Shown here: positions 44,494 through 63,434 of the stretch, piece after piece | How positions within the stretch are numbered: the stretch's first letter is position 1 | How the letters are laid out: each line of letters begins with the position of its first letter | Origin: Candidatus Bathyarchaeota archaeon | GTDB taxonomy: Archaea > Thermoproteota > Bathyarchaeia > Bathyarchaeales > Bathycorpusculaceae | Direction of reading: 5' to 3' | Length of the DNA stretch: 64,000 nucleotides | Assembly: GCA_026014685.1 (NCBI GenBank) | Contig: JAOZHW010000015.1 | Coordinates: forward strand, 62,001 to 126,000 | Translations under genes and position numbers: made by a program | The notes under the pieces: generated by a model | Seen by the model: the letters and a program-made list of their open reading frames with translations, nothing else | Told to the model about the DNA's origin: nothing | Database searches by the model: none

Positions 44494-47400
44494 TTAAAGA
44501 GATGAGGCAGAATGGCGGTAATAAAAACATTTACTTATATTGATTTTATTTCTTAGTGCATATATTGCACAGAGGAAAAAAGTGCAAACTATAGACGCTA
44601 CTATACCCACATAAAAAATGTTTTGTGTTTGAAACTCCAAAGTTATTGTGTATGTTCCTGTTTTATTAATATACCAACTATTAGCGTACCCGTTAGCAAC
44701 GAAATGATATTCATTACATATTTTTTGTCCATCTATACTAGCAATCCAATTGTCATCGTATGATTCGCTGAAAACAAGGAAGAAGGGTTCAGAAGAATTA
44801 ATTTGCACAGAGTATTTTGTTGGATTTTGTTCTTGGAAAGAAATATTAGGTTTATAGAAATCCTTCATGGGCAGTTTTTGTAATTCTGACATATCATTTT
44901 GGTCACTTAGAAAGACAATTGTGTTATCAGGTTTGAAAAAGTCGGTATCTATGATTTTATAAAGTTCTCCCAAATTGTCAGCTAATAGGTAGTTATTTGT
45001 TGCATAAATATGCTCAGGACCAGCTGAGTATTTATTGTTAAGATAAAAATGCAAATCTCCGAATGTTTCTGTTAAATTAAGATAATAAAGGTCAACTTCT
45101 TTACCCTCAACAATGGAAAGATTACTAATTTTGAGTTCAGTTTGTTTATTCGAGTGTAAATTTACTAAAGCAACATTAAGCTGAGTTACACCTGAAAGAT
45201 TAAATTGTTTATTAGGAATTTCCGATGGGTAACGAAGGGGAATAAGAATTCGGGTCCAATTATTAATTTGAGAAGAAAAAATTGCGTATTGCTGGTCAAT
45301 TGACCCTACCCATCTGACCAAGTTACCCGAATTATCGTAAAGTTCTACAAAAAGCTGTCCAGCGACATTGCTTTTAATCCAAAAATGTAAGAAGGATAAA
45401 CCTGTCCAGTTTCCATATCTGGCAGGAATTTTATACGATAATCCAAAAGAGTTACCTATTGTTAGATAATCTGAACTGTTACCCTCCATTGCGATACTGC
45501 CATGCCTACCTACGCCGTCTTGCATATCAGCCTCTATATTGGTGTTAATTCCCCATAAAGATGCCCAACCATTTTTTGAATTGGTACCAAAAAAGTAACC
45601 ATTATCCATTATTTGTGTTTCATTTGAGGTAACTTTACTGGTATCTGTTGGTTCTAAATTAGTGTTCAAGCCAGATTTGAGTTCTTCAGAGGAAAGACCT
45701 ATGTTCATAAGGCTATAGTTATAATCGTCGTGTACAACAACATATTTGACATTTAACATGTTCATTATTTTCCAGCCATTCTGATTACAAAGCCAAGAAC
45801 CCAATAAGTTTGTACACAAAGGCTGAACTATTGGATCACTCATGCTACCATACCAGCCTCTGCTTATGGTAGTGGTGTTGAACAACATATAGTTGGGATC
45901 ACCACCTGCATACGGTTGTTCCCAGGTAGTAATTATACCACCTTCTGTAGCGATCATCGGTAAAGTAATCATACGGAAATCACCGTCTTGGTTTGAAAGC
46001 CAGTTATTAGCATCATAGTAGTAGCTCGGAATTTTTGCATGTGAATAATACCATGGGTTAATCCAAGCTACATCAGTAAATACGTCGCCAGTCCACATAG
46101 GCCAAGGGTAGATAACAAAAACACAAACGCAAACAATACCTACCATACTAGCGGCTACAATTTTACGGTTTAGTTTATGTAATCTATGAGAGGATCTTAT
46201 AAAAGTTGAGGGTTTGCCACGAACAATGCGATAAAGTTTACTTAGGCCAACTCCAAAAAGGAAAGCATATGCCAAAGGTATAATAACACCAAGTTTTTCA
46301 AAAGGATTTCGATAAACCTGCAGAAAAGAAAAGTTATTGAAAAACCATGTAAAAATTTCGCCTAAAGGTGGAGCTGAGCCTTTCGCTAGAAACAAAGAGG
46401 TTACTGCCAATAAAACAAAATAAGTAACGTATCTATTTCTTTTTGTTGTTAACAGAGAACTAAAAACAATCAAAGGGATTAGGAGACTAATAATCAAAAA
46501 AGGTATTGAGTGATAAATAGAACCCCAAAGATATTGTGGGGAATAGGTACTTGATGCGTTCCAAACCAAACGCGATACAGATAACACGTCAATTTTGCTG
46601 CTAAGCACCTGAAGAGTATATAGGTTAACGGATTGAGAAAGTGCAGAAGAAATAGCACTATTAAAACTAAGGTAGGGAGCTATCCACCATAAGTTAACAA
46701 GAACCCATGTTATGAATATTATTATTGTAAATTTTAAAGAGAATAGAATATCAGGTCGTTTTCTTATATTTAGCAAAACAAAGAAGCCTAAATATGAGAA
46801 AATAACCAACCAAAAGTTGATTATCATAGCAGGGTGTATAAACGAACCAGAAAACAAAAGCGATAGTATACACATAACTAAAGCATTAGGCAAACTTTTT
46901 TTTGTCTCAAGACCTCTAATATAAAAGAGCAAAACAAATGGAAGCAGAACAGCCATAAACATTAAACTTACTTGAAAACGTTTCCAAATTTCGACCATCG
47001 CAAAAGGGGATAGCATATAGAAGAAACCAGCCATAAGCGAGGCAGGCAATTGAATGTTTTTTTCATTGATAAGCTTAAAAGTCAGACAGTACATGGATAA
47101 ACCGCTCATTGAGACTAAAATGAAAAACAATATTTGTTCTACAGCTATAGGTGAGAAGCCAATATAGTTTAGAAACGCCATAAAAGAGGTGTAAGATGTT
47201 GAAGAAATTATTGCAACTGCTCCTAAACCAGTACCAAAGCTTTGAAGCCACAAATATCTGAATACATCGAATTGACGACCCGGGAAGTAAAAGTTAAGAC
47301 CGTTTTCAGCATACCCAATCATTCCCCATCTGAACCAAATAGATATGAGGATTAAGCCAACTATTGGAAAGAAAGAAGCACCTAAGATGAAGCATTTATG

Positions 47401-47541
47401 TTCCTTGATATAATTGGAAAAGCGCTGAAATTTTGGACTATTATTTAAGGTATTCAGTTTAGTTTCACTCAGCCAGCCGAGTACCATGGAATTGCATAGA
47501 TTGCTATTATCTTTTCTGTTATTAAAATTTCCCGAATACAT
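44494..47541 (-). CDS. large GT-C-like membrane protein with extracellular domain
   Basis: 1015 residues. After a 45-residue polar start, about 12 hydrophobic helices span residues 47-480, then a 500-residue, Asn/Tyr-rich extracellular region with beta-strand character and a final membrane helix (about 980-1000). The architecture resembles GT-C-type glycosyltransferases and the AftD/YfhO group. No WWDxG motif, so it is not the oligosaccharyltransferase. It probably adds sugars outside the cell from a lipid-linked donor. The call is a family-level inference. Confidence 0.7.
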   Translation of the reverse strand: MYSGNFNNRKDNSNLCNSMVLGWLSETKLNTLNNSPKFQRFSNYIKEHKCFILGASFFPIVGLILISIWFRWGMIGYAENGLNFYFPGRQFDVFRYLWLQSFGTGLGAVAIISSTSYTSFMAFLNYIGFSPIAVEQILFFILVSMSGLSMYCLTFKLINEKNIQLPASLMAGFFYMLSPFAMVEIWKRFQVSLMFMAVLLPFVLLFYIRGLETKKSLPNALVMCILSLLFSGSFIHPAMIINFWLVIFSYLGFFVLLNIRKRPDILFSLKFTIIIFITWVLVNLWWIAPYLSFNSAISSALSQSVNLYTLQVLSSKIDVLSVSRLVWNASSTYSPQYLWGSIYHSIPFLIISLLIPLIVFSSLLTTKRNRYVTYFVLLAVTSLFLAKGSAPPLGEIFTWFFNNFSFLQVYRNPFEKLGVIIPLAYAFLFGVGLSKLYRIVRGKPSTFIRSSHRLHKLNRKIVAASMVGIVCVCVFVIYPWPMWTGDVFTDVAWINPWYYSHAKIPSYYYDANNWLSNQDGDFRMITLPMIATEGGIITTWEQPYAGGDPNYMLFNTTTISRGWYGSMSDPIVQPLCTNLLGSWLCNQNGWKIMNMLNVKYVVVHDDYNYSLMNIGLSSEELKSGLNTNLEPTDTSKVTSNETQIMDNGYFFGTNSKNGWASLWGINTNIEADMQDGVGRHGSIAMEGNSSDYLTIGNSFGLSYKIPARYGNWTGLSFLHFWIKSNVAGQLFVELYDNSGNLVRWVGSIDQQYAIFSSQINNWTRILIPLRYPSEIPNKQFNLSGVTQLNVALVNLHSNKQTELKISNLSIVEGKEVDLYYLNLTETFGDLHFYLNNKYSAGPEHIYATNNYLLADNLGELYKIIDTDFFKPDNTIVFLSDQNDMSELQKLPMKDFYKPNISFQEQNPTKYSVQINSSEPFFLVFSESYDDNWIASIDGQKICNEYHFVANGYANSWYINKTGTYTITLEFQTQNIFYVGIVASIVCTFFLCAIYALRNKINISKCFYYRHSASSL

Positions 47542-51314: not shown

Positions 51315-52463
51315 TCAACTCACGTAAGACTGTTCTATTAAATATGCATTTTCAATGCCAAATCTAGCTTCTGCATAAAGCCTACAACATTTTCTCAGGG
51401 CTTCAAGGTTTTTGCGCTCATACAAGCTTATTAAAGCATGATATAAATCGTCAACGTTTGGTTCTACAAGAATTCCGATACTAGGATCCAATGCTTCAGG
51501 AATACCGCCTTTGTTTGAAGCAATAACCGGAGTCCCACAAGATAGCGCTTCTAATATAACACGCCCAAATCCTTCTTCGTAGATCGATGGAATAATTAAA
51601 ACATCAGCCGCATTGTAGTACAAACCTAATTGAGCATTATCGATTTTTCCAAGATAAATGACGTTTCCCATATTAACCGACGCTGACTTTACTGCCGTGG
51701 ATAACGGGCCATCACCAATGAAAACAAAAGATATATCTTTTTTATTGACTATTCTTGAAGCTACTCTCAGAAGGTTTTTAACACCTTTTATTTCCAATAA
51801 TCTACCTACAAAAAGAACGACGAATTTATACTCTAAACCCAACTGTTGTTTACAACCCAATCTATTAAGTGGCTTAAATATTGACTGATTTACCCAATAG
51901 GTATAAACGGCAATTTTTTGCTTATCCAAACCAATTTTTATTAGTTCCTCTTTTGATTTTCTTGCAAGAGTTAATACCGTAGATGAAGATAAAGTTAGTT
52001 TCAGTAATTTGGCAAGCAACGGTTTTTTAGGCAAATCGTAAATAGCGTGTATACTAACAATGACTTTTTTTCTATAGATCTTTCCTAAAACTTTCCCAAT
52101 AAAAGCAGCATTTATACCATGAGCGTGAATAACATCAATTTTTTTATGGACAGCAGCCATAAAAAAAAAGGAATAAACAAATAAAAGTGGTGTTAAATAG
52201 ATAAATTCAAAAATAGGATAAGGTTCCAACTTATGGAAAAGGTTATTCCCAACCCAGTTAATGCGACGGATTTCTATTGAAGTATGTTTTTCAAAAGAAA
52301 GGGTCTCGGCATCAGTAGTAAGTGGTTTATAGGTTAGTACAAAGACTTCATGACCGTTGTTCCTGAGGAAATTACACAAATCATCTAAATGAGTCTCTAC
52401 TCCACCAATATTAGGGCTAAAGAAGGGGGTTAACATCAAGATTCTCAATTTTTTTTTAATCAT
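51315..52463 (-). CDS. GT4-family glycosyltransferase
   Basis: About 382 residues from ATG 52463. LMLTPFFSPNIGGVETHLDD is the classic GT4 start with the Gly loop; VVLFVGRLLEIKGVKNLLRV and IPSIYEEGFGRVILEALSCG (EX7E) form the donor site. It is in the same direction as the GT2-radical SAM-GT2 cluster, 38 bp downstream of the GT2 stop. Adds a sugar to the lipid-linked glycan; specific sugar unknown. Confidence 0.93.
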   Translation of the reverse strand: MIKKKLRILMLTPFFSPNIGGVETHLDDLCNFLRNNGHEVFVLTYKPLTTDAETLSFEKHTSIEIRRINWVGNNLFHKLEPYPIFEFIYLTPLLFVYSFFFMAAVHKKIDVIHAHGINAAFIGKVLGKIYRKKVIVSIHAIYDLPKKPLLAKLLKLTLSSSTVLTLARKSKEELIKIGLDKQKIAVYTYWVNQSIFKPLNRLGCKQQLGLEYKFVVLFVGRLLEIKGVKNLLRVASRIVNKKDISFVFIGDGPLSTAVKSASVNMGNVIYLGKIDNAQLGLYYNAADVLIIPSIYEEGFGRVILEALSCGTPVIASNKGGIPEALDPSIGILVEPNVDDLYHALISLYERKNLEALRKCCRLYAEARFGIENAYLIEQSYVS

Positions 52464-52501
52464 AATCAAAACCAATCTTTTAATTGCAGCAAATCACACT
52501 T

Positions 52502-53338
52502 TCACCTATTCAGCAAATAAGCAATTGCAACACCCAACCTTAAGAAATAGAGACCGAAGGTAAATAAAGGATACCTTAATAACCGTTTCCATTTTCCGTT
52601 CTCGATAAAAATACCAAAAAATCTATAACCAAACCCTATTTGTTTTGCAATTTCCAAGTCAGCGTCACCCCATTTTTGAGCATACTTTCGAATTCCATCT
52701 GCATAATAAACTTTCTTTTTAAGATACCGAGTTAAGTTAAACCGACCTTCATTGTGATAAATGGGAGCAACGATTACATCAGGACGACTTATTGAGCGTA
52801 CTTTTCTGTCAAAGTCCCAATCTTCTGGACCAACAAGATTTTCATCGAAGCCACCTACCTGAAAGAACAACTCCTTTCGAACGAACCTCACAGCATCTAC
52901 AACAGTACCTGTATAAAAACTCCGCTCAAAATCTCTAATTTTGATCCATAAACCTTGGCCGATTATTCGCTCAGGTATATAAATAGCATCAATAAGTCCA
53001 AATTCACTTTTCGTAACACATTGCTGGATAACATTGGGACTTAAAATCATATCTGCATCGAGATAAATCAAGTATTTACCGCGAGCAACCTTGGCACCAT
53101 GATTTCTTTGCACAGATCGTTCATTTCCTTTAGAAAAAATATTCTCAGTATACTTTTTGGCAATTTCAACTGTCCTATCAGTTGAAAAGTTATCAACTAT
53201 AATCAATTCTATATTCGGGTAGGTTTGATTTTTAATTGATAGGATACAGTTTTCGATATTTTTCTCTTCATTTTTGGTTGTAACAATTACGGAAACTAAT
53301 GGTTCATTTTCTGTCTTGATAAGATGAAGATTTTGCAT
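52502..53338 (-). CDS. GT2-family glycosyltransferase
   Basis: About 278 residues from ATG 53338, behind AGGAT at the end of the radical SAM gene (4 bp gap). VSVIVTTKNEEKNIENCILS, IELIIVDNFSTDRTVEIAKK, YLIYLDADMILS (DXD), and VGPEDWDFDRKVRS with the catalytic-type ED. An ordinary inverting GT2; one possible C-terminal membrane-associated helix (FGLYFLRLGVAIAYLL). Confidence 0.92.
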   Translation of the reverse strand: MQNLHLIKTENEPLVSVIVTTKNEEKNIENCILSIKNQTYPNIELIIVDNFSTDRTVEIAKKYTENIFSKGNERSVQRNHGAKVARGKYLIYLDADMILSPNVIQQCVTKSEFGLIDAIYIPERIIGQGLWIKIRDFERSFYTGTVVDAVRFVRKELFFQVGGFDENLVGPEDWDFDRKVRSISRPDVIVAPIYHNEGRFNLTRYLKKKVYYADGIRKYAQKWGDADLEIAKQIGFGYRFFGIFIENGKWKRLLRYPLFTFGLYFLRLGVAIAYLLNR

Positions 53339-53342
53339 ATGC

Positions 53343-54815
53343 TTATCCTGATTCGCCAAAGTCTTTTACGTGTCCCAATACTTTTGCGGCCCCTTTAATT
53401 GAGTATCTAATATCACGTAAAGAACGTATTCGAACAATCTGTTTAAGCATGTATTGAGGTGACAAAAATACTTTGTATATTTCGTCGCAGAGTTTCATAA
53501 CTTCTTCAGGAGTCATATCAGGAGTAATCATCACGGGTTCTTTCATATCGAATCGATCATAATCAGTAGCGTTAATTCGGAACCAGTGGTTGTTTACGGC
53601 TTCGGCATACAATTTGCTTCCCGGGTATGGAATTACAACGGTTGATTGTAAAGTGACAGCCCAACCTTTTTGCATGAGAATTTTTGCTAAGTTTAGGGTA
53701 CTTTGGGCATCTTTGCGGGTTTCCCATGGATAACCAACCATGATTGTTATATGCGGTTCCAAACCTTCCTCACGCGGTACTCTGCATTCATTCAAGATTC
53801 CGTCGACGGTGGTTCCCTTATTGAGCCTGTCTAATGTCGCTTGACTTCCTGATTCTATCCCGAATAATAGCATCCGGAAACCGGCTTTTTTCAAAAGACG
53901 GTAATTTTCTCGATTTAATGCGCCAAATCTCATGTTGCAACTAAACTGGATTTTCTTGTTGTAGCCTCTTTCAATCATCAGGTTGGCAAACTGTTTAAGC
54001 CATTCTCCCACCGGAAAACAGCCTGTATCATCGAACACCGATTTAACCTTGTATTTTTCGATTAAAAATCCAACCTCATCGGCTAATCGTTCAGGCTTCA
54101 TAACTCTAAAAGTTGGGTAGAGAGTAGGCCATGAACAGAATGTGCATCCACCGTCTTTTCTCCACCAGCAATCGCGTCCTGCCATTGTGTAAGCGCCGGG
54201 AGTGACTTTGAAGTTACCGTTTCGTTCGCTGTAAAGCTGCCAATGTGTCAAATCACGATTAATAAAAGGTAACTCGTTTAGGTCATGGTTAAGTTTGAAC
54301 TGCCCGGTATTTTTTATAGTTTCATTTTCGCGGTACCATATTCCAGGTTCCAGCAGCTTAGTCTTTCCGCTTAAGAAATCGACCAAGTTAACTATCAAAA
54401 AGTCGTAGTCGCCGCCGGTTAGGATGAAATCAACTTTGCTCTGTTCCATGGATTCCTGAGGTAGCGCTGTTACGTGGTCTCCGACCAACACAATTTTTGT
54501 ATCCGGAAGAACTTTTTTTACTTCGTTAATTATGGACCAATGCTTCTTGACCACGGGGGTCTTGGTTTCAATCATCATTACATCAGGGCGCACATTTTCG
54601 AGATCGCTTAGCCATCGATTGTAAAGTTTTTCCTCGGCGATACCATCGTCCCAAACAACTTCATAGCCAGCATTAGAGAGCATTGTTGCAGCGTAAGCGG
54701 GGACAACGGGGTAGATGTAGGTTGGGGAGTTGAAGTATTGGAATTGTCTGTTCTGGCTGAGTAGAGGTACGCCTTTTTCTGAGTGCAGTGGTGGATATGA
54801 AATTGTTATTTTCAT
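53343..54815 (-). CDS. B12-binding radical SAM protein
   Basis: About 490 residues from ATG 54815 (ATGA overlap with the upstream GT2). Residues 1-150 form a cobalamin-type domain (WDDGIAEEKLYNRWL, VGDHVTALPQE at 112-121, BchE-like rather than DxHxxG). The Fe-S site is C216-x7-C224-x2-C227 in GRDCWWRKDGGCTFCSW, unlike the usual CX3CX2C. KSVFDDTGCFPVGEWL, LLFGIESGSQATLDRLNKG and MVGYPWETR complete the radical SAM barrel. It lies in an overlapping chain of glycosyltransferase genes, so it probably methylates or otherwise modifies a sugar or its lipid carrier. Confidence 0.88.
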   Translation of the reverse strand: MKITISYPPLHSEKGVPLLSQNRQFQYFNSPTYIYPVVPAYAATMLSNAGYEVVWDDGIAEEKLYNRWLSDLENVRPDVMMIETKTPVVKKHWSIINEVKKVLPDTKIVLVGDHVTALPQESMEQSKVDFILTGGDYDFLIVNLVDFLSGKTKLLEPGIWYRENETIKNTGQFKLNHDLNELPFINRDLTHWQLYSERNGNFKVTPGAYTMAGRDCWWRKDGGCTFCSWPTLYPTFRVMKPERLADEVGFLIEKYKVKSVFDDTGCFPVGEWLKQFANLMIERGYNKKIQFSCNMRFGALNRENYRLLKKAGFRMLLFGIESGSQATLDRLNKGTTVDGILNECRVPREEGLEPHITIMVGYPWETRKDAQSTLNLAKILMQKGWAVTLQSTVVIPYPGSKLYAEAVNNHWFRINATDYDRFDMKEPVMITPDMTPEEVMKLCDEIYKVFLSPQYMLKQIVRIRSLRDIRYSIKGAAKVLGHVKDFGESG

Positions 54816-55768
54816 CTTTTCAAGTCTCGCTTGAGTAAGCCAGATAGGAAGTAAATGCCGTAGGTGATATGTGTTACTATTATCCCAATCCAAACTATAA
54901 AAAACAGTTTAAGACTTCTAACCTGTTGTGCAGCGGCAATTGAGCAAGAAATAAGATACACCAGTAAACCTAACACCATTATGTAAATAAAGTATGGTAT
55001 CAATAAAGAAAGTATCAATCCAACTGTTAACGATAATATTAGCACAGATGGGAAAAAGTATGTTATTTTTGCAGAATTTTGCGGATATTTCCTTGCAAAA
55101 AGTCCCCTGTGTTCTCCAAATCGTGAAACTTGTTTGAGGTGCGGTTTGAAGAGGGAACGACGATGGTGATAGACAACTACCTCTGATGACTCAATTAGTT
55201 TTTTCCCAAGTTTTCTTATCCCTAAGCACATAAGGGTGTCTTCGCCTGGCCAGTATTTTTCATTCCAACCGCCTGCAGCCAAAATTACCGATTTTGGGGC
55301 AATGAAATTGCAAGAGTGAATGTCATCTGATTCAAAATTGTTCTGTGTTTTATACCTTTTTGACAATGTGCCAACCATAAAAGAAGACATAACTAAGCCA
55401 CTGGCTTTTTGCAGTAAACTATCTTTTGGTGGTGTTATTCCGGGTCCGCCTACACCGCCAACCGAGGGATCTTCAAGTATCTTCGTTGCGTTAGTTAGCC
55501 AGTCATTTCTTGGATAGGCATCGTTGTCTATAAAAGCACAAATTTCTCCTCTTGATTTTGCGACACCTATATTGCGTTTGGTTCCAGGAGCTACAGGTCC
55601 GGTAGCAATAATTTTAATTCCATCAATCGTTGGAACATAGGTGTCGGGTAGCAGTATTATTTCAACATTTGGATAATCTAAGCGTTTACAACCTTCGATA
55701 CATTCTGTTGTATATTCGTCAACTATTTTGCAAGGGATAATGATTGATACCAGCGGTTTTGTAAACAT
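54812..55768 (-). CDS. GT2-family glycosyltransferase with C-terminal membrane helices
   Basis: A 318-residue GT2: VSIIIPCKIVDEYTTECIEG, ICAFIDNDAYPR (DXD-like), GGVGGPGITPP and WNEKYWPGEDTLMCLGIRKLG with ED. Two or three hydrophobic helices lie at about 233-300. Overlaps the radical SAM gene by four bases and follows the dolichyl-phosphate transferase-like gene by 2 bp. Donor and acceptor unknown. Confidence 0.9.
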   Translation of the reverse strand: MFTKPLVSIIIPCKIVDEYTTECIEGCKRLDYPNVEIILLPDTYVPTIDGIKIIATGPVAPGTKRNIGVAKSRGEICAFIDNDAYPRNDWLTNATKILEDPSVGGVGGPGITPPKDSLLQKASGLVMSSFMVGTLSKRYKTQNNFESDDIHSCNFIAPKSVILAAGGWNEKYWPGEDTLMCLGIRKLGKKLIESSEVVVYHHRRSLFKPHLKQVSRFGEHRGLFARKYPQNSAKITYFFPSVLILSLTVGLILSLLIPYFIYIMVLGLLVYLISCSIAAAQQVRSLKLFFIVWIGIIVTHITYGIYFLSGLLKRDLKR

Positions 55769-55770
55769 CT

Positions 55771-56541
55771 TTATTCACGAAAAACAAAAGAGACCATGTT
55801 TTGCAGACCGTTCTTTTTTACTACGGAACGCTGATACCAATGTATAATTCTGAGCCTGTAGGCTATTCCAAGTAAATCAAGGAACATGTGGCATATTTCG
55901 GTTGGTTTGAATTTAGCGTCTAAATTGATGTTTACAGGCATTTCTACAACTTTTAGACCCTTCAGATGTGCTACGGCTAATAATTCAACGTCGAAGGCGT
56001 AACGTTTGACGGCTAGTCTTGGAAAAATGTCTATAAAAGCACTTTTTTTCATGGCTTTAAGTCCTGATTGGGTGTCTTTAAGTGGAATCCCTGTCAATAA
56101 ACGAACTAACCCGTTAAAGCCTTCGCTTAATATTCTTCTGGAAAGGGGAACATTTACTTTGGAGTTATTGTGTCTCTTTGAGGCTATGACGATATCGCCA
56201 TCTTTTAATGCTTCAAGGTATTTGGAAATTGTTGTTAAGTCTATTTCTAAGTCACTATCTGCGAAGACAACGATGCTTCCGTTGGCATTTAAGAAACCTG
56301 TTTTTACAGCGTAACCTTTTCCCACATTTTTTCTATAAGTTACTATTCGAACGTGTCCGTTTTTTCCTGCATATCTTTTTGCTTTTGTTAGGGTTTTGTC
56401 TTTGCTGCCATCGTCGACTACTACTATTTCGTAGGGCAGTTGTTTATCTGCTATAACTGCATCTATTGTTCCAAGCATGTCTTCGATGTAGCTTTCTTCG
56501 TTGTATGCGGGAACGACAAATGATAATTCTACTTGACTCAT
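55771..56541 (-). CDS. dolichyl-phosphate glucosyl/mannosyltransferase-like GT2
   Basis: 256 residues. LSFVVPAYNEESYIEDMLGT, YEIVVVDDGSKDKTLTKAKR, VVFADSDLEI (DXD), KDTQSGLKAMKK and RYAFDVELLAVAHLKGLKVVEMPV are the Alg5/Dpm1 motifs. It would charge dolichyl phosphate with a sugar used by outward-facing GT-C enzymes such as those in this locus. No C-terminal membrane helices. It overlaps the small membrane-protein gene by four bases. Confidence 0.92.
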   Translation of the reverse strand: MSQVELSFVVPAYNEESYIEDMLGTIDAVIADKQLPYEIVVVDDGSKDKTLTKAKRYAGKNGHVRIVTYRKNVGKGYAVKTGFLNANGSIVVFADSDLEIDLTTISKYLEALKDGDIVIASKRHNNSKVNVPLSRRILSEGFNGLVRLLTGIPLKDTQSGLKAMKKSAFIDIFPRLAVKRYAFDVELLAVAHLKGLKVVEMPVNINLDAKFKPTEICHMFLDLLGIAYRLRIIHWYQRSVVKKNGLQNMVSFVFRE

Positions 56542-56916: not shown

Positions 56917-57309
56917 TTAACCTTTGAATATTTTGAGGTTATTGATATGGATCGCGGTCAGAAACGCGGCAAATGAGAAATCAAATGCCCAGGCAGCAGC
57001 GTAAAGATTTCCAAGCTTCTGAGCAATGTTGCTAATCTTTTTGGCTAAATGTAACCCAATTTCCCTCAAACGAACGGAAAAACTGTTGTTTTTCAGGGTT
57101 TCTTCAAGCTTTCTGGTAAGAGAGAGAATGCTTTTTGCCAATGTTTCGCTTTTTATGAGTTCAACGACTTTTATTGTTAAATCTATTAGGGCTCTGTCTA
57201 TTCTTTTTAGTGTTTTAAACCATGCACCGGAACGGATTGCTTTTGTTTTTAAAGCTATCAATTTTCTCTTATCAAGAAAGTTTGAATGAACATTTGAGGT
57301 TGAGTCCAT
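56917..57309 (-). CDS. hypothetical helical protein
   Basis: 130 residues, basic, predicted mainly helical: IDLTIKVVELIKSETLAKSI followed by LSLTRKLEETLKN and LREIGLHLAKKISNIAQKLG. The C-terminus has a mildly hydrophobic stretch, AAAWAFDFSFAAFLTAIHI, that could touch the membrane. No family recognised. It sits alone between the DPM-like gene group and the GT-C-like protein. Confidence 0.5.
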   Translation of the reverse strand: MDSTSNVHSNFLDKRKLIALKTKAIRSGAWFKTLKRIDRALIDLTIKVVELIKSETLAKSILSLTRKLEETLKNNSFSVRLREIGLHLAKKISNIAQKLGNLYAAAWAFDFSFAAFLTAIHINNLKIFKG

Positions 57310-57428: not shown

Positions 57429-58943
57429 TTAGGAAATGGGGAGATAGTGATATATAGCAATTTCTCCTGTACGGTAGACTTCTACAAAGGATGATGACAA
57501 ACTTGGTTGCGCGTACCAGCCTTTGCCATTTATCCACCAAATAACGTAAATTTCTTTGTAACCGTCTTGGATGGCCAAAGTTGCAGTTTGGTCTGGTTCT
57601 TCAAAGCCATAGGATATAACAGGATTTTCTTTTAGGTTTAGCAGTGCCCAGCCATAAAAAACTGTATGTGTAAGCATTACTGCGGTGCTGTTGGTGTTTT
57701 CTTTGAACCATTGAAAGGCTTTCTCTGTATCTTGGCAGTCGATTTTTGATAGGGTATTTTGTTGCATTGATGTTGGTATCTGGTAGACGTAACCGTTAGC
57801 ATGTTCGGGGTTGAAGTACACAAATGGGTGTTGCGGATTCATAAATATGAAGCCACCGCTTAGAACACATGTTGATAATACGAGGTATAGCACAGCTATT
57901 CTGTGAACTGGAAATTTTACTTTCTTCCAAGTGTGGGACTTCAAGATGCTTATGGATTCAACCGCGTAGAATGAAAGGGGATAAGATAAAATCAATAGCC
58001 ATCGATAAGGACTAACAAATGCTGTCGGAATCAACAACAGGATCAAACTCAAAAAGAGCCAGCCTCTTAATTGCGGATTCCCAAAGTGCTTGAGACTTAT
58101 CAGTACTATGGGCAACAGTGGTATGTAACAGTATAACAAGAAGCCCCCTTCAGCCATTAACATTGATGAATATGAAGTGAAGCCTGTCCAGCTGGCTAAT
58201 GACGAAACAATGTTTGTGGAGTAGTTTTGAAATCCTGCTTGAGTTATATCATTCAAGTATACGATAACTAAAAAAAGAATCGATGCAGGTATTGAAGCAA
58301 CTATCAGTTTCAATGATTTGTCGTCTTTTCTGATGTACTGATTTAGAATAGTAAATACGATCATGCCAAGCAGAATTACAGACACCAACTGGTGCGATAA
58401 AACTACCATCACCAAAATCAATGAAAGAAGGGTATATCGTTTCCATGAACCAGTACGACTGTTGGAAAGAACTATTAAGGCAAAGAAGAGGAAAATTAAG
58501 CCCAGTTCTTCTCGAAGTTGATCCCATGAAGCCCTTAACGCGACAAAGTAAAGAGTACCTAAAAAGGCAGTGAATAAACTTTTAGCAGTTGACCAGCGTA
58601 AGCCGTTCTTTGCATACAAATAAATTGAAAAACCTAGTGCACCGAGTAATAATGGAGAAAGTATTTTTAATACCATAATTGGTGAAGCCCCGACGGCTAC
58701 AATGGGAAGAAAAATTGTGTAGAACAATGGAGCAGTTGCTATGTAGGTTGATGGATTTACGCCGTTTTGTAGCCAATGCAGGGTGTTTGGTACGTAGAAA
58801 CCAATCGTGTCAAACCCCGTAACGTATGGTCCCATTAGAATTTCAGGAATCATCCGAACCATAAGGGGTATGATAAAGGATAACAGAGGAAAGAAAAGGG
58901 TTTTTCTTTCAAGCTGACGAATTAAATGTTGAAGGTGAGTCAC
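57429..58943 (-). CDS. multi-membrane GT-C-like glycosyltransferase
   Basis: 504 residues with about 11 hydrophobic helices. The first loop after helix 1 has GPYVTGFDTIGFYVPNTLHW, a GT-C-like Asp-containing motif, and a C-terminal extracellular domain of about 120 residues (from NPQHPFVYFNPEH). No WWDxG, so not AglB. It probably transfers a sugar from dolichyl phosphate outside the cell. Same direction as the DUF3131 gene upstream (108 bp). Confidence 0.75.
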   Translation of the reverse strand: MTHLQHLIRQLERKTLFFPLLSFIIPLMVRMIPEILMGPYVTGFDTIGFYVPNTLHWLQNGVNPSTYIATAPLFYTIFLPIVAVGASPIMVLKILSPLLLGALGFSIYLYAKNGLRWSTAKSLFTAFLGTLYFVALRASWDQLREELGLIFLFFALIVLSNSRTGSWKRYTLLSLILVMVVLSHQLVSVILLGMIVFTILNQYIRKDDKSLKLIVASIPASILFLVIVYLNDITQAGFQNYSTNIVSSLASWTGFTSYSSMLMAEGGFLLYCYIPLLPIVLISLKHFGNPQLRGWLFLSLILLLIPTAFVSPYRWLLILSYPLSFYAVESISILKSHTWKKVKFPVHRIAVLYLVLSTCVLSGGFIFMNPQHPFVYFNPEHANGYVYQIPTSMQQNTLSKIDCQDTEKAFQWFKENTNSTAVMLTHTVFYGWALLNLKENPVISYGFEEPDQTATLAIQDGYKEIYVIWWINGKGWYAQPSLSSSFVEVYRTGEIAIYHYLPIS

Positions 58944-59051: not shown

Positions 59052-60497
59052 TCAAACACGGAGAGCGTATTTTGCTGCCGCCAATATGAGCGCATTAGTA
59101 TTTCCGCCCATTTTATCAAGCACTGTTGCTAGTGAGGGGTCGGTGTTGAAGTCTGCTCCGTGGTAGTATCCATTTTTCGGGTCTGGGGAGACTTTCTCTA
59201 GGTATATACTCATTTCTTTTGCAAAAGTGGAGTTGTAAATAGCTAGAAAGCTTAGAGATACTTTGCTGTAGATTATGGGGTTAATATCAATAAGTTTCTC
59301 ACTATTTGATATTTGCCACGTGTCTCCACTGGCACGTACAACCCACTCCCAGATAAATCCGTATTGACTGTCGCCTTCACTAAAAGCTACATATTGACCC
59401 GTTGAGTTGTATCTCGCTTCATGAGCCAAATACGTATCGTTCATAAGTTTTCGTATCCTATCATTTGAGGGCAATTGGAAAAAAGAGTATAGCAACGGTT
59501 CACATGAAATTTCTGCCTTTGGTAAAGTAACGCCGTATGTTGTAACATTTCCGGAATACATTTTATCGAGTATTTTACCAGGCACTGTTTCAAGCTCATT
59601 AGGCCAAAAGAAAGCAAAACCACTTGCACAGTAGTAAGAATACACACTTGGAGAGTTAACAAAATCCTTAAGCAGTGGAACTAGAGCTGCATAGTCTGTT
59701 CGATTGCCGTAACTATTATAAACAAAACTATCTATACGTGAAGCAAGAGAGGGCATGTAAGTTTTGAGGTTATATAGAGCAACAAACAACGTGCCAGTAT
59801 CGATTACGTCTACGCCGTTTTGGGTTAAGTATCCTTTTCCGTCCGATGCATAGAACCAATATGGAACCTTGGTTGTACTGTTAAGTTCTCGAGTTTCAAG
59901 AAAGCGGATAACTTTTTCTAAACGCGCAGTGGCTCCCCATTCACCTGTTTTAGTTATCAAACCTATTTTTTCAGCATCTATCACTGCTTGAATGTACACA
60001 CCTAAGTCCCAATCAGTAAAGTAATTCCAGCCGTATCCTGAAGCTGGAAGCCCAGTGGTGGAGTCGACTCCTCTGCCAACTTGGTAGTATGCCCAAGCGT
60101 TCGCAGCCACTGCCTTCCAAACGGTGCTGTTAAGGTAGGGTGAAGACTCGATTAATCCAGCTGGTTTGTTTATTTGGGGGTCAATTGTGGGCACTCCCCC
60201 TGCAGAAGATGGGACATGTGTGGGTTTCCGCGTGGTTGTTGGACTTGGACTGATAGTCTGAGTTGCGCTGGGCGTAGCGGTTGGGTCGTTCACAACGGGA
60301 ACAAACTCGGTTGGGGCAGGTTTTTTGGTGTTCATTATGAATCCGAATGCAGAAACTAAAAGTATCGCGGAGATTGTGATGCCGATTATGATTTTTTCTA
60401 TTTTACTGAAGTGCCAAAAGCCACCATTTTTTTTATTTGTCCATACGGTTCTAAAGTGTATTTGATTTCTGTTTTTTTCCGCGTTACCGAGCTTCAT
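59052..60497 (-). CDS. DUF3131 family protein, membrane-anchored
   Basis: 481 residues. A membrane helix (about 35-55), a Thr/Pro/Ser-rich stalk (about 60-105), then a DUF3131 domain: WKAVAANAWAYYQVGRGVDS, GWNYFTDWDLGVYIQAVIDA with EKIGLI, and RLEKVIRFLETREL. This domain resembles alpha/alpha-barrel glycan-acting enzymes and is often next to membrane GT2 genes. It lies 90 bp after the processive GT2 gene. Probably a surface glycan hydrolase/processing factor; unproven. Confidence 0.85.
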   Translation of the reverse strand: MKLGNAEKNRNQIHFRTVWTNKKNGGFWHFSKIEKIIIGITISAILLVSAFGFIMNTKKPAPTEFVPVVNDPTATPSATQTISPSPTTTRKPTHVPSSAGGVPTIDPQINKPAGLIESSPYLNSTVWKAVAANAWAYYQVGRGVDSTTGLPASGYGWNYFTDWDLGVYIQAVIDAEKIGLITKTGEWGATARLEKVIRFLETRELNSTTKVPYWFYASDGKGYLTQNGVDVIDTGTLFVALYNLKTYMPSLASRIDSFVYNSYGNRTDYAALVPLLKDFVNSPSVYSYYCASGFAFFWPNELETVPGKILDKMYSGNVTTYGVTLPKAEISCEPLLYSFFQLPSNDRIRKLMNDTYLAHEARYNSTGQYVAFSEGDSQYGFIWEWVVRASGDTWQISNSEKLIDINPIIYSKVSLSFLAIYNSTFAKEMSIYLEKVSPDPKNGYYHGADFNTDPSLATVLDKMGGNTNALILAAAKYALRV

Positions 60498-60587: not shown

Positions 60588-61844
60588 TCAAGAAAAGAGT
60601 CCACCTTGAACTGTGCCTCTGTGGATTGAGCCTGTTTTTGTGGTTTTCGTCCAGTCTCTTCGGCGCCTAAACACCAGTTTAAGGAACGCCCAGCCTGCAA
60701 TCACCATTTGAATTAACCAGTAAATGTAGATTGAAGGAATCCAAAGGATATTCTTCAACCTGACGGGTCTTTCTGTGGAAATTAATGCTATGCCGATGGT
60801 TGCTAAGGAAACTGCGGTCAAGGCTATTATTAGCCCCGTAAAGTTCAGCACGGGGGTGCTTTGAGAGAGGAAAATCGCCACAAAAAACCAGTTAATGTAG
60901 CTTAACAGTGAAACAACCATCATGAAAGGCCCGCCCAGAGAGATTTCCGCGTCTATGGTGCGTTTGTTTATGTTGTTGAGCAGTCGTCCGTATTTTATGG
61001 CTGTTTCCATGTATCCTCTGTACCATCTGACTCGCTGTTTGAATAGGCTTTTTAGGCTTGCAGGTGTTTCTTGGCCTGAGCAGATGTCGGGGACGTATTT
61101 TATCAGGTGGTTTTTTTCGACGAGTCGTAGGGCTAATTCTACGTCTTCTGTTAGGGAGTTGTCGTCCCAGCCGCCTAACTCTTGGAGGACTGTTCTTCTG
61201 ACGAATTGGCAGCTTCCCGTTAGTGGGACGAATAGTTGGAGTTTTTCTCGTCCACCCATGAGCATTCTGAACCAGGCTTTTTCTTCCATCGAGATGACGC
61301 GGGTTAGTATGTTGCTTTTTTCGTTTATAGATGTGGTCATGCCTTGTATTGCCATGATTTTTTGGTCGTTGAAGTAGGCGCTGGCTTTTGTTAGTACGTC
61401 TGGTTCGGGGACGCTGTCGGCGTCAAAAACTGCCACTATGTCGCCTGTTGCATGTGTTAATGCGAGGTTTAGTGCTGCGGGTTTGCCGCGGGTGTTTTGT
61501 TCTGTGATGATTTGGAAGGTTTGGGGATTTTTTTGTTTGAATTCGTTGCATATTTCTATGGTGGAATCTGTCGAGTTTCCATCGACGACTATAACTTGGA
61601 GTTTTTCTTTTGGGTAATCTATGTTTAGTATGCCGTCTAAGCAGCGGCGGATGACTGATTCTTCGTTTTTTGTGGGAATTATAAGTGAGTAACTGGGGAG
61701 TGCTTGTGGGGTGTGTAGGGGTTGTGTTTGTGATTGGTTTCTTCGTTTGTTTCTGATCCCCACGTAGATGATGGAGCCGTTGTAGATTGACCAAAATAGC
61801 AGGAGCGCTAATAGAATGATTGATGTTATTTCGAAGATGACCAT
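60588..61844 (-). CDS. processive membrane GT2 (cellulose/chitin/hyaluronan synthase-like)
   Basis: 418 residues. One N-terminal and four C-terminal membrane helices flank the catalytic domain: YSLIIPTKNEESVIRRCLDG, VIVVDGNSTDSTIEI, VAVFDADSVPEPD (DXD), LTEDVELALRLVE (TED) and KQRVRWYRGYMETA (QxxRW), the complete signature of processive beta-glycosyltransferases. It would make and export a beta-linked polymer. Next to a DUF3131 gene, which fits a polymer-processing partner. First gene of this strand's cluster. Confidence 0.93.
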   Translation of the reverse strand: MVIFEITSIILLALLLFWSIYNGSIIYVGIRNKRRNQSQTQPLHTPQALPSYSLIIPTKNEESVIRRCLDGILNIDYPKEKLQVIVVDGNSTDSTIEICNEFKQKNPQTFQIITEQNTRGKPAALNLALTHATGDIVAVFDADSVPEPDVLTKASAYFNDQKIMAIQGMTTSINEKSNILTRVISMEEKAWFRMLMGGREKLQLFVPLTGSCQFVRRTVLQELGGWDDNSLTEDVELALRLVEKNHLIKYVPDICSGQETPASLKSLFKQRVRWYRGYMETAIKYGRLLNNINKRTIDAEISLGGPFMMVVSLLSYINWFFVAIFLSQSTPVLNFTGLIIALTAVSLATIGIALISTERPVRLKNILWIPSIYIYWLIQMVIAGWAFLKLVFRRRRDWTKTTKTGSIHRGTVQGGLFS

Positions 61845-62525: not shown

Positions 62526-63434
62526 ATGAAGTTTTCAGCGATTATGTTAGCGTTTATTCTTTGTTTGGCTGCTTGCTTTAGCGGTGATGTTGCGGTTGGG
62601 CAGGATGGGGATACATATTCTCTGCAGCTTCAAGGCTACGTTTGGAACCACTCGACGCTGTCAGCGCTGGTTGTAACTACAGAGAATGAATCGTGGTGGA
62701 ACCCATCCTACGTCAACGACACACTTCGAGCGGTCGGGCAATGGAACAACGCCCTCGAAGCGTACGCGGGCAACTACACCGATTACGCTTACCTTGCGAA
62801 CCTAAAAATCAACCCGCGTGTCTCCAGTGAAATTCGACCCGGCTACGACCTCTACATTTCATGGGTTGAATCCTCGATAAGCAATATGTCTGATGAGGTG
62901 GGGTTGGCTCAGACTTTTATCCGCGGCGACAACACCATAATAAACTGCACCATAACTCTTGCCGCTAAAACCAATCACGGTGTCGCCCTCAGCGCTACAG
63001 ATATGCAGAATATCGCGTTACATGAGGTGGGACATGGATTAGGGCTGGGTCACAGCAACTATACAGGCGATTTGATGTATTCACTGTACCGTTTGGGTGA
63101 TTCGCCAGTTGCAGTTTCAACTTTGAACGTCTATGGCGTGGCGGCTGTTTTCGGGTGGATGCCTAACCCGTCGGGGTTTTTGCCCATCAGCGGCTGGTTC
63201 AAGCAGAACTCGGTTTCTTTGTCGGCTCAAAATTATGGTTACTTGTGGGTGGCGCCAGAGAATTCTCCGCCGCAGTCATTAGCTGATAATGTTGTGGTTC
63301 AGTTTTTGGTTTTGATGTGGGGGCTTTTGTTGCATCCTGAAATCGGGTTACCCGTGGTTGGTTTAATTTTGCTTTTTGTTGTTTTAGTCCTTATTCCAAG
63401 AAAAAGGAAGCCGACCGTTAAGGTTGACTCATGA
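62526..63434 (+). CDS. secreted matrixin-type zinc metalloprotease with C-terminal anchor
   Basis: 302 residues. Signal peptide (MKFSAIMLAFILCLAACFSG), zinc motif H166-E-x-x-H170-x5-H176 (ALHEVGHGLGLGHS) with the Met-turn at M184 (DLMYS), a spacer, and a C-terminal membrane helix (VVGLILLFVVLVLI) with basic stop RKRK. This is the metzincin/matrixin M10-like arrangement. No obvious propeptide Cys switch is visible. It is probably a surface-bound protease that acts outside the cell. The last 17 bases overlap the convergent MBL gene. Confidence 0.88.
   Translation: MKFSAIMLAFILCLAACFSGDVAVGQDGDTYSLQLQGYVWNHSTLSALVVTTENESWWNPSYVNDTLRAVGQWNNALEAYAGNYTDYAYLANLKINPRVSSEIRPGYDLYISWVESSISNMSDEVGLAQTFIRGDNTIINCTITLAAKTNHGVALSATDMQNIALHEVGHGLGLGHSNYTGDLMYSLYRLGDSPVAVSTLNVYGVAAVFGWMPNPSGFLPISGWFKQNSVSLSAQNYGYLWVAPENSPPQSLADNVVVQFLVLMWGLLLHPEIGLPVVGLILLFVVLVLIPRKRKPTVKVDS

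Follow-up and report, generated by a model that had tools for sequence, protein, structure and literature searches.

Most characterised class B radical SAM (rSAM) enzymes, which bind cobalamin, methylate their substrates; the few exceptions include HpnJ, BchE and OxsB (PMC13142503). HpnJ works with the glycosyltransferase HpnI on a lipid-carried sugar and, together with HpnI and HpnK, is required for a lipid-carried cyclitol ether (PMC5462960). BchE acts on a porphyrin, and OxsB, a 744-aa protein with extra domains, on a nucleotide. By published description, GenD1 and GenK are cobalamin rSAM enzymes that act on sugars, the GenD1 motif being reported as Cx4Cx2C (PMC4340712), while PoyC and the bottromycin methylases share Cx7Cx2C (PMC5682303) and act on peptides. 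The literature that we searched reports B12 rSAM enzymes with antibiotic, peptide, porphyrin and lipid substrates but none as a regular step in building surface glycans, and we found no description of a B12-rSAM/GT2/flippase module or of the rSAM family reported here.

The window, a stretch of 64,000 nucleotides from a Candidatus Bathyarchaeota archaeon, carries a gene that belongs to an unnamed but widespread family of B12-type rSAM enzymes. What is new is this family and its dedicated GT2 partner. If the function proposed below is correct, a radical, cobalamin-dependent step lies inside surface-glycan assembly, performed by an enzyme whose Fe-S loop has changed length several times.

Fold, relatives and distribution of the rSAM protein

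The gene occupies positions 53343-54815, as the sequence-only reading of the window had placed it. It is read from the minus strand, beginning with ATG at 54815 and closing with a stop codon whose last base is 53343, and its translation is 490 aa long. The Radical_SAM core domain by which the superfamily is recognised (PF04055) covers residues 222-376 with 55.3 bits against a cut-off of 29.5, and the B12-binding domain PF02310 covers residues 34-132 with 31.9 bits, slightly below its cut-off of 32.1. When searched alone against the sequences of the PDB, the N-terminal domain returned response regulators and chance matches and no B12 protein. Structure prediction, which had been proposed as a check of the Fe-S site, yielded an AlphaFold2 model (mean pLDDT 91, built from 57 family sequences) in which the Rossmann-like N-terminal strands are present. 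The solved structures that the predicted model matches best in Foldseek belong to class B enzymes, apart from AprD4, which is related to them: MgmA ranks first and AprD4 second, followed by TsrM, OxsB, CysS and TokK, and the full-length matches include TsrM, OxsB (at 14% identity) and TokK.

Among named profiles, HpnJ is the best for all 57 members scanned and BchE also matches 56 of them, in every case far below the cut-offs. For the window protein, HpnJ (TIGR03471) gives 151.5 bits against an NCBIfam cut-off of 577.6, a true HpnJ scoring 699, and BchE (TIGR02026), the second-best named profile, gives 110.9 bits against 481.35; with scores so far below the equivalog cut-offs, identity as HpnJ or BchE was rejected. 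The profiles of the ladderane B12 protein and of HpnR match family members as well. A class B-like architecture is shared with BchE and, over residues 33-462, with HpnJ. In a tree that included class B sequences from the window's genome and from ten further genomes, all family members fell into a single clade on a long stem (support 100), which clustered with HpnJ and a small number of HpnJ-like proteins (support 87-97). The grouping with HpnJ itself is moderate (87), and the outgroups were paralogues fetched from the ten genomes with the HpnJ profile, so that HpnJ-like sequences are over-sampled; that the family lies nearest to HpnJ among the sequences compared is thus moderately supported.

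A contig search returned 230 relatives, of which the best 80 loci were used; three further loci from whole-genome searches brought the sample to 83. Family members occur in archaea, Omnitrophota, Thermodesulfobacteriota, candidate-phyla bacteria and others. The family is not specifically archaeal, since 63 of the 83 sampled loci are bacterial and 20 archaeal. Within the window's genus the gene was present in one of eight sampled congeners, a patchiness that fits horizontal transfer or loss. Two cultured Desulfovibrionaceae, Fundidesulfovibrio agrisoli and Desulfovibrio sp. DV, have a family member, which makes their glycans examinable.

A second, distinct B12-type rSAM protein (cluster c29), which scores 63-196 bits against the family profile, is a recurrent member of these glycan loci, three to seven genes from the rSAM gene in L033, L045, L049, L051, L060, L068 and L075. 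In one genome (G000:C3:20112-22857; L002, L005) two class B rSAM genes stand in tandem, both with CX3CX2C.

Cysteine triad and cobalamin domain

Three clustered cysteines, as in the radical SAM superfamily, are present as C216-x7-C224-x2-C227, the spacing being CX7CX2C rather than the canonical CX3CX2C. The claim that this is the only candidate triad was borne out. The remaining cysteines (266, 293, 344 and 443) form no CX3CX2C, residue 220, where such a motif would require a cysteine, is a lysine, and no other conserved CX3CX2C was found. C216, C224 and C227 are invariant in all 83 family sequences (82 distinct; the best 80 of 230 relatives plus 3), which rules out a chance pattern; since exact peptide patterns (QNRQFQYF, MAGRDCWW and others) served to choose the loci, the search itself favoured invariance in the stretches concerned, and in part that of C216, and C224, C227 and Lys85 lie outside all of the patterns.

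The length of the Fe-S loop varies within the family. Of the 83 sampled sequences, 58 have CX4CX2C (CWWGKCTFC), 24 have CX7CX2C (CWWRKDGGCTFC) and one has CX12CX2C. On a family tree built with the motif columns removed, at least eight changes of loop length are needed, about three of them forced by well-supported branches, and loop length is therefore evolutionarily flexible. Other class B proteins from the same genome as the window protein have CX3CX2C, as does HpnJ, in contrast to the CX4 and CX7 forms of this family. In profile alignment to solved structures, both OxsB (C-DYSR-C-TF-C) and queuine lyase (C-IWGK-C-SF-C) have CX4CX2C. The spacing in the window protein is thus non-canonical, yet it has precedents in accepted radical SAM members and cannot be called unusual in itself, given the commoner CX4CX2C within the family and the motifs of OxsB, queuine lyase, GenD1 and PoyC. 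With loops of 4, 7 and 12 residues, the family supplies natural variants whose scaffold is constant in other respects.

The N-terminal domain had been described as B12-like without DxHxxG, and the motif is indeed absent from the 490-aa sequence. This absence is expected, because in characterised class B enzymes cobalamin is bound base-off and no histidine serves as its ligand. A structural review reports this for OxsB, TsrM and TokK, in which a residue of the loop after strand 3 lies under the cobalt (Asn186 in OxsB, Arg69 in TsrM, Trp76 in TokK; PMC13331322). Neither CX7CX2C nor the missing DxHxxG can accordingly be taken as the mark of a new enzyme class, precedents existing for both. In the window protein, the corresponding loop of the Rossmann-like domain holds Lys85, which is invariant in all 83 sampled sequences. 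In a family-profile alignment (OxsB E 1e-7), OxsB Asn186 aligns with it free of gaps; in HpnJ and other relatives the position is mostly Ser or Thr. From this one alignment, Lys85 is predicted to lie near the lower face of cobalamin. A G-x-H motif common to class B relatives follows strand 4.

The partner glycosyltransferase and the probable substrate

Immediately upstream, and overlapping the rSAM start by 4 nt, lies a membrane GT2 that we call GT2m1 (54812-55768, minus strand, 318 aa; Pfam Glycos_transf_2). It comprises a GT-A domain with conserved D81xD83 and E176-D177 and three C-terminal hydrophobic helices (71 orthologues). Its AlphaFold2 model (pLDDT 95.6) is nearest to PcManGT, an archaeal membrane mannosyltransferase, and then to cellulose and hyaluronan synthases. 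Synteny in related genomes, another of the proposed checks, showed GT2m1 within three genes of the rSAM gene in 80 of the 83 loci (the best 80 of 230 relatives plus 3), in archaea and bacteria alike; the relatives do not lie consistently outside glycan loci. Of 67 scored loci, 37 have the two genes side by side and slightly overlapping. GT2m1 proteins score 217-500 bits and other GT2s in the same loci at most 160, the absolute values being inflated because the profile was built from these loci, and most partner GT2s form a single clade (74 rows, support 100). As an independent test of co-occurrence, the window's own rSAM and GT2 proteins were used as queries against 250 Thermoproteota genomes and the window's sample row. 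The three genomes with an rSAM match were also those with a GT2 match, apart from one further GT2 match (33% identity) with an internal stop; the hypergeometric p of about 1.5e-6 assumes independent genomes and ignores shared ancestry, two of the three being congeners. A one-locus coincidence as the explanation of the glycan linkage was rejected on these grounds.

Next upstream is a DPM-like GT2 of the polyprenyl-phosphate sugar synthase type (55771-56541, minus strand, 256 aa, with no predicted membrane helix), which matches dolichyl-phosphate hexose transferase and polyprenyl-phospho-sugar synthase models below cut-off (Pfam, NCBIfam). Such a gene is near the rSAM gene in 60 of the 83 sampled loci and is fused to GT2m1 in three bacteria (L019, L074 and L077). 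Of the 63 bacterial loci, 45 have a Wzx/MATE-type flippase nearby, as against 1 of the 20 archaeal ones. The module thus consists of four genes, for the rSAM enzyme, GT2m1, the DPM-like GT2 and, in bacteria, the flippase, and with so few archaeal flippases it is not uniform. The remaining neighbours, including GT4s, epimerases, dehydratases and aminotransferases, vary from locus to locus; that the rSAM protein is highly conserved between phyla against this changing background suggests that its substrate is the same throughout.

The earlier proposal that the substrate is a sugar or the polyprenyl carrier holds in its link to glycans, given the 80 of 83 loci and the shared three genomes. The tight tie to glycan assembly makes a sugar or lipid-carried sugar the likely substrate. 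The near-constant adjacency of GT2m1 further indicates that the rSAM enzyme probably remodels a lipid-carried sugar before glycan export, and we consider it reasonably probable that it acts on such a sugar made by its partner GT2. In this reading, the DPM-like enzyme and GT2m1 would assemble a sugar on a carrier of the polyprenyl type. The rSAM protein would bind a [4Fe-4S] cluster on C216, C224 and C227, and cobalamin with Lys85 near its lower face, and a 5'-deoxyadenosyl radical would then initiate a change in the carbon skeleton of the membrane-carried sugar. The product would subsequently be exported, in bacteria by the flippase.

As to the reaction, the choice between a C-methylated and a rearranged sugar had been left open. 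We slightly favour an HpnJ-like rearrangement, in which a ring is contracted or a carbocycle formed, over C-methylation, although we would still put it somewhat short of an even chance. The neighbour clusters examined contain no hopanoid genes, in contrast to what HpnJ itself would lead one to expect, but rather GT2, flippase and sugar-nucleotide genes. C-methylation is possible and comes close behind: a cobalamin-dependent C-methyltransferase would produce a C-methyl branched surface sugar, much as GenD1 or GenK do on aminoglycosides, although their substrate is a soluble antibiotic. Methylation is after all the activity of most characterised class B enzymes (PMC13142503), GenD1 with its Cx4Cx2C motif C-methylates a sugar (PMC4340712), and MgmA, the top Foldseek match, is a C-methyltransferase; on the other hand, HpnJ and BchE, the profiles best matching nearly every member, do not methylate, and the neighbourhoods examined hold no constant keto-sugar or other methyl-sugar signature. 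Some different radical reaction seems rather unlikely. We put forward only speculatively that GT2 and B12 rSAM enzyme form an obligate pair, in archaea and bacteria, and equip a polyprenyl carrier with a sugar that is ring-contracted, carbocyclic or C-branched.

That the protein is an AprD4-like radical SAM dehydratase or epimerase with no use for cobalamin appears improbable. AprD4 is the second-best Foldseek match and has a sugar-type substrate, and the B12 Pfam score falls just under its cut-off, but the N-terminal Rossmann-like domain is intact, G-x-H follows strand 4 as in class B relatives, and the invariant Lys85 takes the position of OxsB Asn186, which sits beneath the cobalt. Modification of the polyprenyl or other lipid carrier itself is, if anything, a shade less probable still: several relatives act on lipids (family members match the profiles of HpnJ, the ladderane B12 protein and HpnR) and conservation across phyla while nearby sugar genes vary would fit a common substrate, but the constant partner is a glycosyltransferase and not a prenyl-chain enzyme, and no prenyltransferase or reductase recurs among the neighbours examined. 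Action on the lipid-carried sugar remains our preferred reading, and the pair of genes, conserved in many uncultured phyla, constitutes a concrete and testable candidate.

Surroundings in the window

Downstream of the rSAM gene lie a further GT2 (52502-53359, minus strand, 285 aa; Pfam Glycos_transf_2), whose cluster, c4, is frequent but not constant (20 loci), and a GT4 glycosyltransferase (51315-52475, minus strand, 386 aa; Pfam Glycos_transf_1 and Glyco_transf_4) in the variable part of the locus. The genes had been read as an overlapping chain GT4-GT2-rSAM-GT2-DPM-like; the order is correct, and overlap applies to two of the four junctions, by 4 nt between the rSAM gene and the upstream GT2 and by 17 nt between it and the downstream GT2 if the latter begins at its TTG start, the other two being gaps of 2 and 26 nt.

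Close by are UDP-GlcNAc dehydratase-like, RmlA/RmlB-like, GalU-like and UDP-glucose dehydrogenase-like genes. AftD-like GT-C enzymes use polyprenyl-phosphate sugars as donors, and the window encodes a membrane protein weakly similar to their GT-C domain (44494-47541, minus strand, 1015 aa), with a PF11847 match of 4.3e-05 and 22.1 bits, below the cut-off of 26. Similarly weak AftD-like matches occur near other family members (1.7e-06 to PF11847 for the c18 representative; 2.2e-04 for gene -1 of L038). A hydrophobic 504-aa protein (57429-58943, minus strand; cluster c32), encoded upstream in six Bathyarchaeota loci, has no Pfam or NCBIfam match, and we suspect a GT-C-type function.

Six Bathyarchaeota loci likewise encode, upstream of their DPM-like gene, a 130-aa protein without a family match (56917-57309 in the window; cluster c33). 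Further along, a DUF3131 protein with an N-terminal hydrophobic segment (59052-60497) adjoins a PgaC-like GT2 (60588-61844), and a small protein with a matrixin (Peptidase_M10) match lies at the locus edge (62526-63434). In some Omnitrophota, a 338-aa protein (cluster c28), whose sole Pfam match is dubious, is a constant neighbour.
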